A DNA stretch of 38,721 bases, taken from assembly GCA_015063725.1 (NCBI GenBank), contig SVTP01000024.1:1-38721 (forward strand), written 5' to 3'. This DNA comes from Oscillospiraceae bacterium. Its GTDB lineage: Bacteria > Bacillota > Clostridia > Oscillospirales > CAG-272. The notes beneath the pieces were generated by a model, which worked only from the letters and a program-made list of their open reading frames with translations, was not told where the DNA came from and did no database searches. The translations under genes and the position numbers were made by a program. Of the stretch, positions 3,544 to 38,558 are shown in pieces; the first letter of the stretch is position 1, and every line of letters begins with the position of its first letter.

Positions 3544-4689
3544 TTACATCAGCTTGAGGTAGAGCTCTTTGATCTCTTCTACACTGGTCTCGCGGGGGTT
3601 ACCGGGACGGCAAGCATCGGCATATGCGGACTCGGACAGGAAGTCGAGGTCCTCTGCCTTTACGATCTCCTTGAGGTCTGCGGGGATGCCTACGTCGAGG
3701 GAGAGCTGCTTCACTGCATTGATAGCTGCTGCACGTGCTTCTTCAAGTGTCATGTCTGCAACACCTTGAACGCCCATTGCAACTGCGATGTCTCTGTATT
3801 TTTCACCGGTTGCGGGAGCATTATATTCCATAACAGTGGGCAGGATGATTGCGTTTGCAACACCGTGAGGGGTGTCGTAAACCGCGCCGAGGGGGTGAGC
3901 CATCGAGTGAACGATGCCAAGACCTACGTTGGAGAAGCCCATGCCTGCAATGTATTGACCAAGTGCCATACCCTCGCGACCTTCGTCGGTGTTTTCAACA
4001 GCGCCGCGCAAGCTCTTTGCGATCAGCTCGATCGCCTTGATGTGGAACATGTCACTCATTTCCCAAGCGCCCTTGGTAATGTAGCCCTCGATCGCGTGGG
4101 TGAGCGCATCCATACCGGTAGCCGCGGTCAGACCCTTGGGCATAGTCGCCATCATATCGGGGTCAACAACTGCAACAACGGGAATGTCGTGAACGTCAAC
4201 GCATACCATCTTGCGGTTCTTCTCTGCATCGGTGATAACGTAGTTGATGGTTACCTCTGCGGCAGTACCTGCGGTGGTGGGAACGGCGATGATGGGGGTG
4301 CACTTATTCTTTGTGGGAGCAACGCCCTCAAGGCTGCGCACGTCTGCGAACTCGGGGTTCTCGATGATGATACCGATCGCCTTTGCGGTGTCCATAGAAG
4401 AGCCACCGCCGATAGCAACGATGCAGTCTGCACCGCTTGCCTTGAATGCTGCAACGCCGTTTTGGACGTTCTCAATGGTGGGGTTGGGCTTGATATCGCT
4501 GAAGATATCGTATGCGATGCCTGCGGCATCCAGAACGTCGGTTACCTTTTTGGTAACGCCAAACTTGATCAGATCAGGGTCGGAGCAAACGAATGCTTTT
4601 TTGAAGCCTCTTGCTTGGATCTCGGGAGCGATTTCATTGATCGCGCCTTTGCCGTGATAGCTGGTTTCATTGAGTACAAATCTTGCCAT
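3544..4689 (-). CDS. fucO: Iron-containing alcohol dehydrogenase, lactaldehyde reductase (1,2-propanediol oxidoreductase) type
   Basis: FucO-type enzymes reduce L-lactaldehyde to 1,2-propanediol with NADH during anaerobic fucose or rhamnose use and act on related short diols. The 381-residue product matches E. coli FucO closely in remembered sequence: NPEFADVRSLEG, PTTAGTAAEVTINYVITD, GMDALTHAIEGYIT, GEKYRDIA. The NAD-binding GGGSSMD is at 94-100. Fe ligands are expected at D194, H198, H261 and H275, and all are present. Length is normal. AAGGAG precedes the ATG. It is a single-gene unit with its own strong promoter and terminator. No fucose or rhamnose catabolic genes adjoin it, so a general fermentative role is possible. 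Confidence 0.9.
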   Translation of the reverse strand: MARFVLNETSYHGKGAINEIAPEIQARGFKKAFVCSDPDLIKFGVTKKVTDVLDAAGIAYDIFSDIKPNPTIENVQNGVAAFKASGADCIVAIGGGSSMDTAKAIGIIIENPEFADVRSLEGVAPTKNKCTPIIAVPTTAGTAAEVTINYVITDAEKNRKMVCVDVHDIPVVAVVDPDMMATMPKGLTAATGMDALTHAIEGYITKGAWEMSDMFHIKAIELIAKSLRGAVENTDEGREGMALGQYIAGMGFSNVGLGIVHSMAHPLGAVYDTPHGVANAIILPTVMEYNAPATGEKYRDIAVAMGVQGVADMTLEEARAAAINAVKQLSLDVGIPADLKEIVKAEDLDFLSESAYADACRPGNPRETSVEEIKELYLKLM

Positions 4690-4817: not shown

Positions 4818-4865
4818 ATAAAAAAGCGGCACCCCGCCAAAAAGCAGGTGCCGTCAAGCCCACCA
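4818..4865 (-). ncRNA. Predicted very short transcript: promoter followed directly by terminator
   Basis: A good promoter at 4872-4900 would start RNA near 4865. Only about 12 nt later a GC-rich hairpin begins (CGGCACC, arms 4827-4833 and 4847-4853), and its second arm is followed on the minus strand by CTTTTTTATT. The result would be a ~48-nt RNA ending near 4818, upstream of the separate fucO promoter. It could be a small RNA, or a premature-termination device whose readthrough feeds fucO. No ORF fits inside. Confidence 0.45.
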
Positions 4866-4871
4866 TTATTT

Positions 4872-4900
4872 AGTATAGCACACTTCTTCCCTTTTGTAAA
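4872..4900 (-). promoter_or_regulatory. Second minus-strand promoter upstream of fucO
   Basis: Minus-strand TTTACA (4895-4900), 17 bp, TATACT (4872-4877), with TGC before the -10. It is divergent from the promoter at 4976-5004. Confidence 0.7.
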
Positions 4901-4918: not shown

Positions 4919-4998
4919 TTACAATTTCTGCTTTTTCTACAAAAATTAAATGCACATTTCTTACAATTTGCCATATTGACGGGGGCGAAAAAATGTGC
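4919..4998. promoter_or_regulatory. Possible operator region between divergent promoters
   Basis: TTACAATTT occurs at 4919-4927 and 4961-4969, 42 bp apart (about four helical turns). Separately, GCACATTT at 4952-4959 has its inverted copy AAATGTGC at 4991-4998, which fills the end of the spacer of the plus-strand promoter. Either could bind a regulator. This rests on pattern alone. Confidence 0.35.
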
Positions 4999-5004
4999 TA
5001 TAAT
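4976..5004 (+). promoter_or_regulatory. Strong vegetative promoter of the ~435-nt predicted RNA
   Basis: TTGACG (4976-4981), exactly 17 bp, TATAAT (4999-5004), with TGC before the -10. The expected start is near 5011. Confidence 0.85.
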
Positions 5005-5034
5005 AAAGTCACCAACCAAAAGGAGGACGGTCCG

Positions 5035-5046
5035 ATGAAATATTAA
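5035..5046 (+). other. Three-codon mini-ORF with strong ribosome site at the 5' end of the predicted RNA
   Basis: AGGAGG at 5021-5026 lies 8 nt before ATG AAA TAT TAA. The spacing is ideal for initiation, yet the frame stops after three codons. It may be a regulatory minigene, a ribosome-recruiting site, or the relic of a longer frame: the same frame is open from 5071 to 5286 after a second stop at 5068. Confidence 0.35.
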
Positions 5047-5366
5047 ATCGGGGACTTTCTCATTCGGTGATTATTCAAAACTGAGAACGGTAAAGAGACG
5101 GTTCGCGGAACCGGTATCTGTGCAAAGCGAGCACAGAAAAAACACGGCGGTGTTACGCATCATATAGATAAAGGTAATGAGAAAGATTACCGAGGTAGAA
5201 GATCCGTTCCAAAATCACCAATGAAAAACGTCCAAGGCTTCGCCCCTCAACCTGACGGCACATACGAAAACAAAGGGTATTCTCGTTAGAGAAAAAAGAT
5301 GATTGTGTTTTGGGATATGACGAAAACGGATGACGGGTAGACTAATGAAAGAGAGGATAACAAAAG

Positions 5367-5396
5367 ATGTTAGATACTAAGAACTGTGAGAAGTGA
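5367..5396 (+). other. Nine-codon mini-ORF overlapping the terminator stem
   Basis: GAGAGG at 5351-5356 lies 10 nt before an ATG that encodes MLDTKNCEK and stops at 5394-5396, inside the left arm of the terminator (5390-5402). A ribosome finishing this frame would cover that arm. This is the geometry of a leader peptide controlling termination, but no gene directly downstream obviously depends on it. Confidence 0.3.
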
Positions 5397-5443
5397 CCCT
5401 TGGGTGTGGGCTTACAACCTTCATTCAAGGGTCACTTCTTTTT
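5390..5443 (+). terminator. Intrinsic terminator of the ~435-nt predicted RNA
   Basis: A perfect 13-bp stem (GAAGTGACCCTTG, 5390-5402, with 5426-5438), a 23-nt apical part, then TTTTT at 5439-5443. Confidence 0.85.
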
Positions 5444-5447
5444 ATAA

Positions 5448-5725
5448 TTCGCGCAGAACAAAAGCCACTCTCACTTTTAAAGATCTCATTTCATTGAATT
5501 TTAAACATAGATTATTTTAAAGGTTGAAATCCGCCAAGGGACGGATTTCTTCATTTTTTATGTGGCTTTTTAGTCGCGCTCGACCGCTCTGCCGTACCTT
5601 TGTACGGCGACGATTGGTCGATCACGCCTTCTGCATCGAATTCCCTCGTCTCATTTTCGCGCAGAACAAAAGCCCCATCACATTTATATCCCTTTTTCTC
5701 CCCTGCCCTCGGCAGGCTTTTGTTT
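5448..5725. repeat. Duplicated hairpin unit with a 19-bp direct repeat
   Basis: The 19-mer TTCGCGCAGAACAAAAGCC occurs exactly at 5448-5466 and 5656-5674. In each copy the AAAAGCC end can pair with a downstream GGCTTTT (5559-5570 region and 5714-5723). Each unit also encloses a further hairpin: 5526-5549 (GAAATCCG stem, followed by a T-rich tail) and 5704-5718 (CCTGCC stem, followed by CTTTTGTTTTT). A third stem, GCCGTAC with GTACGGC, flanked by CGACC/GGTCG, lies between about 5583 and 5622. The area may be tandem non-coding repeats or terminator modules; open frames across it lack ribosome sites. Confidence 0.55.
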
Positions 5726-5817: not shown

Positions 5818-7089
5818 ATGATTTGGGCTATCATTCTGTTTGCCGTAACCTACGTTGGCATGCTGACGTTCAGCAAATATCGCCCCTACATCGCGCTTGG
5901 ATCGGCGCTTATTTTTATCGTAACCGGTATGCTCCCCTTTGGCGAGATCTTCGGTGCCATTGACTTTAACGTCCTTTTGATGATTGCCGGCACAATGGGG
6001 CTTGTTCAGCTCTTTATCGACAGTAAAATGCCTGCACGCCTTGCCGACATGATTATGCTAAAGGTCCCCAACGTGCAAATGGCAGCCGTTGCGCTTGCAC
6101 TTTTTGCAGGTGTGATCTCTGCTTTTGTGGACAACGTAGCAACCGTTTTGATGATTGCTCCCGTAGCTCTTGAAATTTGCAAAAAGTTGAACACCAATCC
6201 CGTTCCCTTTATCATCGGCATTGCCGTTTCCTCCAATCTTCAGGGGGCGGCCACGCTGGTTGGCGACACCACCGCCATTATGCTCGGTTCCTATGCCGAC
6301 ATGAGTTTTCTTGATTTCTTCTGGTATCAAGGCAAGCCCGGCATCTTTTTTGCGGTTGAGCTTGGTGCGCTTGTTTCGGCTATCATTTTGGCATGGATAT
6401 TCCGCCGCGAAAAAGGAAAAATCGGAAAAACACAATCCCTTACCCCCGTTACCGACTACGTCCCCACCGTTCTTTTGTGCGGAACAGTCGTGCTTTTGAT
6501 CCTCGCTTCCTTTATCCCCAATAAGCCTGCCATCACCAATGGCTTGATCTGCATGACCTTGCTGGTTGTGGGCTTGATCTACAACTTTATCAAGAACAAG
6601 AACAAGGACTCCATCCTCGAGCCCCTCAAGGCGATCGACTTTGAGACCATTGGACTTTTGCTCGGTCTCTTCCTGATGATCGGCGGTATTACGAATATGG
6701 GCGTGATCGATGCAGCCGCAGGACTGCTTGCAAAGCTTGGTGGCGGTAACGTATTCGTCCTTTACACCGTTATCGTCTGGGCATCGGTGCTCATTTCGGC
6801 ATTTATTGATAACATCCCCTACGTTGCAACCATGCTCCCCGTTATTACGGGACTTGCCGCAGCCCTTGGTATTGACCCGGCTGTCCTCTATTTTGGACTT
6901 TTGTCGGGCGCAACCCTTGGCGGCAACTGCACCCCCATCGGTGCTTCTGCCAACATCACGGGTATTGGCATTTTGCGCAAGGAAGGATACGAGGTCAAGA
7001 ACAAAGACTTCTTCCGCATCGGTATTCCCTTCACGCTTGCGGCAATCATTCCTGCTTACATTTATCTGTGGATCTTTTACGGAATCTGA
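5818..7089 (+). CDS. ArsB/NhaD-type (ion transporter superfamily) membrane permease
   Basis: Members of this superfamily export arsenite, exchange sodium for protons or import di- and tricarboxylates. The 423-residue product has about ten to eleven hydrophobic helices in two repeated halves. Each half contains the superfamily hairpin signature: ISAFVDNVATVLMIAPVALEI in the first and ISAFIDNIPYVATMLPVITGL in the second, each followed by a Gly-rich re-entrant stretch (GAATLVGDTTAIM; GATLGGNCTPIGASANI). The substrate cannot be read from this. No arsR, arsC or arsenic genes are nearby, which argues weakly against an arsenite pump. AAGGAG lies 11 nt before the ATG. It is a single-gene unit with its own promoter. 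Confidence 0.85.
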   Translation: MIWAIILFAVTYVGMLTFSKYRPYIALGSALIFIVTGMLPFGEIFGAIDFNVLLMIAGTMGLVQLFIDSKMPARLADMIMLKVPNVQMAAVALALFAGVISAFVDNVATVLMIAPVALEICKKLNTNPVPFIIGIAVSSNLQGAATLVGDTTAIMLGSYADMSFLDFFWYQGKPGIFFAVELGALVSAIILAWIFRREKGKIGKTQSLTPVTDYVPTVLLCGTVVLLILASFIPNKPAITNGLICMTLLVVGLIYNFIKNKNKDSILEPLKAIDFETIGLLLGLFLMIGGITNMGVIDAAAGLLAKLGGGNVFVLYTVIVWASVLISAFIDNIPYVATMLPVITGLAAALGIDPAVLYFGLLSGATLGGNCTPIGASANITGIGILRKEGYEVKNKDFFRIGIPFTLAAIIPAYIYLWIFYGI

Positions 7090-38364: not shown

Positions 38365-38393
38365 TTGACAAACCTTCTCGGTTGTGGTATAAT
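38365..38393 (+). promoter_or_regulatory. Consensus promoter of the rplJ operon
   Basis: TTGACA (38365-38370), 17 bp, TATAAT (38388-38393), TGG before the -10. Confidence 0.92.
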
Positions 38394-38399
38394 ACCTGC

Positions 38400-38558
38400 G
38401 TTATCCAAAGACAGCAGGTTCCGGTAAAAGCTGACGCTTTCCTGCCGAGGAGATGAATTGAATCCCAATTTGTGCGTTCAATCTTTCTTCACGGCCAAAG
38501 TGTGCTTGCCGGAAGGAAGATTTTTTTATTTCGAAAATCTAACAGGAGGTCAAACAGA
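38400..38558 (+). promoter_or_regulatory. Ribosomal protein L10 leader (autoregulatory RNA)
   Basis: The 5'UTR between promoter and rplJ contains the L10-leader core: CAAAGACAGCAGG...CCTGCCGAGG (38405 to about 38453), in which CAGCAGG pairs with CCTGC around a kink-turn-like region that binds the L10-L12 complex when in excess. A transcription attenuator follows at 38481-38527. Confidence 0.88.
38481..38527 (+). terminator. Attenuator in the L10 leader
   Basis: ATCTTTCTTC (38481-38490) pairs with GAAGGAAGAT (38512-38521), extended inward by CGGC/GCCG (38492-38495 with 38508-38511), and runs into TTTTTTT. It ends 17 bp before the rplJ ribosome site, so it can stop transcription before the genes. 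Confidence 0.8.

Follow-up and report, generated by a model that had tools for sequence, protein, structure and literature searches.

A candidate family of stand-alone structured RNAs in gut Clostridia with very short reading frames at both ends

Large stand-alone bacterial RNAs such as OLE, GOLLD and ROOL carry their own promoter and terminator, adopt complex folds and function in trans. Here we analyze a predicted RNA encoded in a 38,721-nucleotide stretch of DNA (the window; contig SVTP01000024.1) from an Oscillospiraceae bacterium whose genome assembly is 1.85 Mb long and 80% complete. Like OLE, GOLLD, ROOL and raiA, this RNA has its own predicted promoter and terminator, a complex fold and a probable function in trans, but it differs from them in lacking any match in Rfam 15. 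It also has a mini-ORF that could load ribosomes at each of its ends (ORF1 at the 5' end and ORF2 at the 3' end), a feature known, to our knowledge, from none of those four RNAs. Each of these ingredients has a precedent that we know of, in stand-alone structured RNAs or in STAB-SD elements and minigenes, but we know of no precedent for the combination.

Several other systems resemble parts of this architecture. Downstream-peptide, or yfr6, RNA is cyanobacterial, and it is not known to have either a 5' minigene or an ORF merged with a terminator. It resembles the window RNA in that a short conserved ORF comes after a structured RNA, but it is described as the 5' UTR of that ORF (PMC2864571). 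The leaders of vmlR and other ABCF genes, which are ribosome-mediated attenuators, are likewise described as combining a short upstream ORF with an intrinsic terminator, although the window RNA family has neither their conserved downstream gene nor an antiterminator. Strong Shine-Dalgarno sequences (SDs) that are not translated are reported to stabilize long RNAs in Bacillus, as is a ribosome stalled at the 5' end (PMC3997798), and minigenes and their SDs are reported to protect mRNA, with ribosomes on a minigene with a strong SD re-initiating without leaving (PMC8708949). In the accounts given there, the cry3A and ermC leaders and the LEE4 and axe-txe mini-ORFs resemble the window RNA in a strong 5' SD with no ORF or one of 2-6 codons, and in a docking of ribosomes, putative in our case, for which the peptide is irrelevant (PMC3997798, PMC8708949). 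However, these elements are described as leaders of protein-coding mRNAs, whereas the window RNA has no main ORF and has a second landing site at its 3' end.

We compared the window RNA with the 4227 families of Rfam 15 and found no match above the gathering score. The best E value on it, 0.4, belonged to a microRNA model on the terminator, on the other strand, and a scan of 40 homolog loci returned no match on the RNA itself. The statement in the preliminary description that no known large RNA fits was therefore upheld in the window and in the 40 loci, and we rejected a known RNA family on both gathering-score and E-value scans. Our literature search, which covered open-licence papers in PMC, found no description of the RNA. 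The 3161 gut RNA candidates reported in PMC8040213 may include a fragment of the family. The locus is a genuine and apparently undescribed RNA gene.

The transcription unit and its upstream region

The RNA lies between a minus-strand gene at 3544-4689, whose translation resembles by eye an iron-type alcohol dehydrogenase, and a plus-strand gene at 5818-7089, which by the same means resembles a transporter. Its plus-strand promoter, TTGACG-17-TATAAT with an extended TG (4976..5005), was found by a promoter scan and places the inferred start at about 5011. With 11 of 12 consensus bases it bears out the near-consensus promoter claimed earlier. The strong intrinsic terminator that had also been claimed was recovered in our folds as a 22-pair stem (5388-5410/5418-5440) followed by T's, while a simple terminator scan passed over it; the hairpin (5389..5443, plus strand) overlaps the end and stop codon of ORF2. 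As judged from these signals, positions 5011-5445 are a self-contained transcription unit of about 435 nucleotides with its own promoter and terminator. Just 3' of the terminator there is a perfect 19-nucleotide direct repeat, TTCGCGCAGAACAAAAGCC, at 5448-5466 and 5656-5674, 208 nucleotides apart. Elsewhere in the window, a ribosomal protein L10 leader (RF00557) at 38387-38536 on the plus strand scored 46.8 bits against a cut-off of 44.

The limits of 5011-5445 given previously hold for the RNA itself, but the conserved unit reaches further upstream, to a divergent promoter and a predicted micro-hairpin transcript. This conserved promoter, of the extended -10 type, lies at 4872..4900 in the window (minus strand; 10/12, with TG before the second hexamer). 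A left -10 could be located in 75 copies, and in 58 of them its distance to the right -10 is 120-129 bp; the promoter scores at least 11 in 55% of 88 non-redundant copies versus 2% of shuffles. A terminator-like hairpin on the same strand (4820..4853 in the fold; 4838-4825 and 4839-4827 in the scan) would end a short left-going transcript, and such a hairpin lies within 141 nucleotides in 68 of 77 left transcripts versus 79 of 231 mononucleotide shuffles. The predicted transcript starts TGTTGGgg, which like the position of its promoter is conserved in many copies, and has its median end about 35 nucleotides after the -10. Since no more than 19 of 46 genes upstream of the RNA copies are divergent, the left promoter often serves no gene, and its sole product would be a short hairpin RNA of about 30-50 nucleotides. 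The conserved A/T-rich block between the two promoters (4919..4975), recognized by position-specific information in the alignment, is a possible regulator site or UP element. By eye, one copy (L007) has in the conserved upstream block a perfect palindrome, TTGTGAA-GTT-TTCACAA, which is imperfect in some others and could be a regulator site common to both promoters.

Comparative support for the fold

We collected homologs by blastn of window positions 4960-5460 against 147 related genomes (E <= 0.1). Matches occurred in 95 of the 147, many of the rows being short promoter stretches, and the strongly recurring part was the 3' module (query positions of about 377-484). The first set of copies (A1) consisted of 30 loci that yielded 32 oriented copies, the window's own included.

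The predicted fold of 5011-5445 has a z score of -3.61, and 0 of 100 shuffles were as stable, but for 5047-5388 the z score is only -0.68 and 25 of 100 shuffles were as stable; much of the stability of the whole is therefore that of the terminator. The assertion of more order than expected by chance thus stands for the entire RNA, although a good part of that order comes from the terminator. The multibranch domain alone (5047-5238), a stretch that was picked once the fold was known, has a z score of -3.81, with 1 of 200 shuffles as stable. Folding energy is by itself insufficient for the claim, and it is the comparison between copies that carries it.

The two closing long-range stems and four hairpins proposed earlier are all present in the minimum free energy (MFE) fold, and pairing between the flanks has comparative support. 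The 5' arm of the outer stem, P1 (5052..5072), pairs with 5213-5233, and that of the inner stem (5085..5090, from the MFE fold only) with 5204-5209, so that the two 3' arms together span 5204..5233. The four enclosed hairpins (5099-5113, 5117-5137, 5141-5154 and 5173-5191) vary among homologs, as does the interior of the RNA at large. A core, ACACGGCGGTGTTACGC..ATATAGAT (5142..5169), is kept in a minority of copies: of 153 copies, 30 contain ACGGCGGTGT and 38 contain ATATAGA, the latter versus 4 of 153 shuffles. Outside this domain, covariation identified a hairpin, TTCTC-GTTA-GAGAA (5280..5293), and a helix, P3. The arms of P3 in the window are GCCCCTCA (5242..5249) and TGACGGGT (5331..5338), with one C-C mismatch; its 5' arm is GCCTTTTG in most of 30 aligned copies, and its 3' arm is CAAAAGGT-like in other copies. 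Arm pairs obtained by direct reading include GCCTTTTG/CAAAAGGT, GTCTTTCG/CGAAGGAT and ACCCTTTG/CTGAGGGT. All of these elements are on the plus strand.

The terminator stem carries double changes at 13 of 21 consensus pairs across the 32 A1 copies. For P3 and the hairpin at 5280-5293 we used set A2, the 30 of the 32 first copies that remain after L023 and L027, which the selection pattern missed; a regular expression for a P3-like motif defined where its segments were cut, one start being placed manually, and cutting at this motif favors alignment of that arm. In A2, 90.4% of 384 cells are paired, with 25 double-change cells versus a shuffled value of 8.6 (none of 500 shuffles reached 25) and a covariation score of 0.356 versus 0.252 shuffled (0 of 500), and slid versions reached at most 0.175. 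Two of the five covariation measures were not clearly above shuffles in this set, namely the 8 pairs with a change on both sides (44 of 500 shuffles) and the 21 further pair types (110 of 500).

We assessed the long-range pairing with a partner-swap test, in which the best helix joining two segments, one that follows ORF1 and one that precedes P3, was scored for own and swapped partners. The own partner scored 22.2 versus 19.1 in 29 copies (from L001-L030) and 18.7 versus 16.9 in 67 other copies, each beyond all 5000 permutations, although no more than 7 of the 29 copies and 4 of the 67 had it as their single best partner. The best helix was P1 in many copies (L001, L009, L017, L030) and an inner stem in others (L003, L006, L018). 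A version of the test based on RNAduplex cross-energies was weaker (z of -2.6 in the f1 set). RNAalifold returned no structure for a mixed alignment of 66 copies, probably because that alignment is poor. Given that the terminator stem, P3 and the hairpin covary and that the outer long-range stem passes the partner-swap test, we conclude from this comparison that the fold is under selection. Drift of the homologs without compensation, which would have counted against a structured RNA, was not what we found in these helices.

A 10-nucleotide contact had also been proposed between a hairpin loop and upstream sequence (5055-5064 with 5176-5185). The complementarity is present, but it gains no support as a pseudoknot: by our calculation, 435 nucleotides would contain about 0.1 such match by chance, the 5' strand already lies within P1, and L002, the closest relative, has one mismatch. 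We therefore did not credit it.

Short reading frames at the two ends

The preliminary description held that the sequence is without a credible gene, and this part of it must be revised, since two conserved mini-ORFs are present (5035-5046 and 5367-5396, both on the plus strand). ORF1, ATG AAA TAT TAA (5035..5046; MKY-stop), follows a very strong SD, AAAGGAGGACGGTCC (5019..5033), whose duplex with the 16S 3' tail, at -19.1 kcal/mol, is below the 1st percentile (-18.5) of 349 genes compared. In other copies the SD is AAAGGAGGTACGGTCC or AGAAAGGGTGATACC. Throughout, it is complementary to the greater part of the 16S 3' tail, GGATCACCTCCTTTCT, which we found as an exact pattern in 2 of 12 genomes of the order. 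The median ORF1 duplex is -16.1 kcal/mol (n = 105) against -9.5 kcal/mol for the 349 genes, each allowed its best ATG, and 4% of those genes are as strong.

The start of ORF1 was chosen from the promoter (with the -35 required), SD energy and ATG only, a rule that located it in 104 of 152 copies and found none in the other 48. The stop falls at codon 3 or 4 in 96 of the 104, leaving 2-3 sense codons, whereas only 3 of 208 cases in the other two frames show a stop at the corresponding codons; the copies are related, and the counts are therefore not independent. An earlier, looser finder agrees with the stricter rule (99 of 107 copies). The eight exceptions stop at codon 5 (L055, L059), after 8 codons (L094, L197), after 11 (one copy, at L028) or after 13 (L043, L045), and the last, L181, is probably mislocated. 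Among the 96 stops are 76 TAA, 15 TGA and 5 TAG, the position varies too, and the ORFs encode 40 different peptides (MYR, MYK, MG, MKS, MF, MW and others). No base-level motif would keep a stop while its position and letters change, and this stop rule, together with the 40 peptides, argues that the landing of a ribosome matters rather than the peptide. Read in this way, the rule for ORF1 is to load a ribosome and stop almost at once, the product being irrelevant. The 5' end thus has the strong SD, very short ORF and unconserved peptide of a 5' minigene or STAB-SD element, and in L014, L015, L020 and L025 two or three ORF1 modules stand in tandem in a copy.

With its exceptionally strong complementarity to 16S rRNA, its two to four landing sites and its ORFs of two to three codons that mostly end in UAA, the RNA could also be a decoy or brake that lowers translation by parking 30S subunits or by draining initiator or peptidyl-tRNA, a translation counterpart of 6S RNA. 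According to the account in PMC8708949, in E. coli growth is inhibited more by the shortest minigenes, by strong SDs and by UAA stops. However, a decoy would not need the structured domain, titration would require a very high copy number, and the last sense codon of ORF1 varies widely. We regard this explanation as quite unlikely.

ORF2 (5367..5396) encodes MLDTKNCEK-stop, its common form being MLD[TIN]K[SN]xxK, as in MLDTKSEQK-like versions. Its SD, GAAAGAGAGGAT (5347..5358, plus strand), contains GAAAG.GAGG, which is invariant in the 32 A1 copies; the 16S duplex is only -11.8 in the window, and the median over 157 copies is -13.8, with 10% of the 349 genes as strong. These 157 distinct copies were selected with a pattern requiring a frame like that of ORF2 with a stem at the stop codon, most of them with one that fixes ATGTTAGATA..AAGA, so that their figures for codons 2, 3 and 5 and for the paired stop hold partly by construction. 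Their ORF2 has nine codons in 147 copies, eight in 9 and eleven in 1, and ends in TGA (100), TAA (53) or TAG (4).

Figures free of this selection effect come from the 32 A1 copies and from 74 copies obtained by BLAST or the covariance model only, in 73 of which a first-ATG rule located ORF2 (it misplaced L009, L024 and L080 on an upstream ATG and missed L084). ORF2 has nine codons in 62 of these 73; its codon 2 is leucine in 63, through five different codons, and all three bases of its stop are paired in the predicted hairpin in 69. In all 32 A1 copies the stop lies inside the 5' arm of the terminator, so a ribosome would have to open the stem to finish ORF2. The usual stop is lost in L092, and the end of ORF2 is frameshifted in L077.

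The kept frame, the synonymous changes of the leucine and a stop that persists while its letters change could mean that the nine-residue ORF2 peptide is itself the product and the remainder of the RNA its regulated 5' UTR. The conservation, however, is mainly of M-L-D-x-K: codon 4 is I, T or N, codons 7-8 are loose, and at codons 4 and 6 the second position is more variable than the third, which is not ordinary protein constraint. No gene family consistently adjoins ORF2 either, and we consider this dual-function explanation unlikely.

Distribution, genomic neighborhood and possible function

We built a covariance model (R1) on the 3' module and searched genomes sampled from the order, class and phylum. 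It matched 75 of 394 genomes from the order, including G098, G184 and G192 (terminator part only) and a few other weak ones; 23 of 391 from the class, with the window's own genome counted and with weak matches in G535, G678 and G741; and, from the phylum, 3 of 398, that is, the own genome and two weak matches that we took as chance. A pattern scan of named genomes found at least 119 stretches. Among the 80 matches listed were MAGs named Oscillospiraceae, Ruminococcaceae, Clostridia and Candidatus Faecousia, and ruminant gut sample names were common among the same 80. The window's genome has one copy, while some genomes have copies at two to four separate places (e.g., G343, G195, G328) and G041 has a tandem triple copy. 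In families outside the order (f76, f43, f58), R1 matches are at least as strong as in members of the genus to which the window belongs, a pattern suggestive of horizontal movement or of an uneven taxonomy. On this comparative evidence, the window RNA is one member of a widespread RNA family located at scattered genome positions in many gut Clostridia. At one of the 40 homolog loci scanned, Gut-1 RNA (RF01706) was found in GTGAAGTT-type hairpin repeats that adjoin a copy (L059:2146-2219, plus strand); the account of Gut-1 RNA in PMC2864571 places it in human gut sequences only.

Scattered positions, tandem copies and the high scores of families outside the order might instead mean that the family is not an RNA gene of the cell but a small mobile or repetitive element. 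Yet neighboring copies have diverged (their middles are 73-88% identical in nine pairs), and a phage or plasmid origin is without support, since IMG/VR had 0 matches to the exact ORF2 pattern and phage and plasmid collections had no blastn match to the window sequence. Integration linked to tRNA genes was rejected as well, because these occur in only 11 of 40 stretches and at no fixed position. A mobile element is, in our judgment, very unlikely. We also made an empty-site comparison. The transporter gene downstream of the RNA was found in 5 of 35 genomes of the genus, the own genome included, and the stretch before it had no match to the RNA in G026, G012 and G006, which are few and rearranged cases. 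G024, the closest relative, has two copies (L238 and L239, one cut by a contig end) near the syntenic place, and the DNA preceding its transporter gene differs by 2-3 kb.

We compared 485 ORFs surrounding the window RNA and 46 homolog copies at 40 loci and found no consistent neighbor gene family. The largest shared cluster is present at 8 of 41 loci and the second largest at 3, which suggests that the RNA probably acts in trans. Of 45 downstream genes, 19 share the strand of the RNA and 4 lie within 150 nucleotides, which argues that the RNA is not a leader and agrees with the stand-alone RNA proposed at the outset. The features expected of a stand-alone structured RNA, predicted from sequence, are thus in place (a covarying structure, an own promoter and terminator, and no fixed neighbor). 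The earlier interpretation as an unknown RNA of this kind stands as regards the missing Rfam match, the own signals and the non-leader position, but with its mini-ORFs the RNA is more than non-coding.

The same neighborhood data bear on a ribosome-sensing attenuator, in which stalling at ORF1 or ORF2 would refold the RNA so that the terminator is bypassed and the downstream gene expressed. A short 5' upstream ORF and a 3' terminator with a stop codon in its stem are the anatomy of such leaders, and the fthC motif is described with a similar one, in which an AUG accompanies a region resembling an SD and a stop often lies within a stem (PMC11109978). However, downstream genes are seldom both suitably oriented and close and are not of one kind, and a search of 153 copies for an antiterminator found a longest complement to the terminator arm of 5.59 nucleotides versus 5.22 shuffled, with complements of at least 8 nucleotides in 3% versus 2% shuffled. 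With neither a single kind of downstream gene nor an antiterminator, we rejected the attenuator as highly improbable.

We give about an even chance to our preferred reading, that the product of the locus is a structured RNA of about 435 nucleotides that stands alone, acts in trans and is engaged by ribosomes at its two ends. Beyond the observed constraint on sequence and structure, we infer that ribosomes dock at both ends, that this protects the RNA and that the RNA has a target. The very strong 5' SD would load a ribosome that terminates after 2-3 codons, before P1 is reached; in the window P1 starts 5 nucleotides after the ORF1 stop (5046 to 5052), so that the stop would also keep the ribosome out of the structured domain. 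On-the-spot re-initiation at ORF1 could then cap the 5' end against 5'-to-3' decay, a proposal that we base on the protection reported for strong SDs and stalled ribosomes in Bacillus (PMC3997798) and the re-initiation reported for minigenes (PMC8708949). At the other end, a ribosome on ORF2 would meet the terminator stem with codons 4-5 near its A site, as placed by standard footprint geometry, and pause there, and it may cap or meter the 3' end. The domain between the two ends would act in trans on a target, perhaps sensing or using ribosome availability.

A possible, though doubtful, form of regulation is that the RNA mimics two start regions and parks idle or nearly idle ribosomes at both ends. 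These ribosomes would be held by the throw-away ORFs and by extended pairing to the 3' end of 16S rRNA, and the lifetime of the RNA and its trans-acting domain would be coupled to the free ribosome pool, making the RNA a counterpart of 6S RNA on the side of translation.

Frequent in gut and rumen Clostridia and without a match in Rfam 15, this large RNA family would join the few big bacterial RNAs whose job is unknown. The ORF1 rule, by which a start and a near-immediate stop are kept while the peptide is ignored, is a clean evolutionary signature that can be searched for in other untranslated RNAs. The architecture as a whole leads to a testable claim, namely that ribosomes can serve as end caps or sensors for an RNA that is not a messenger.
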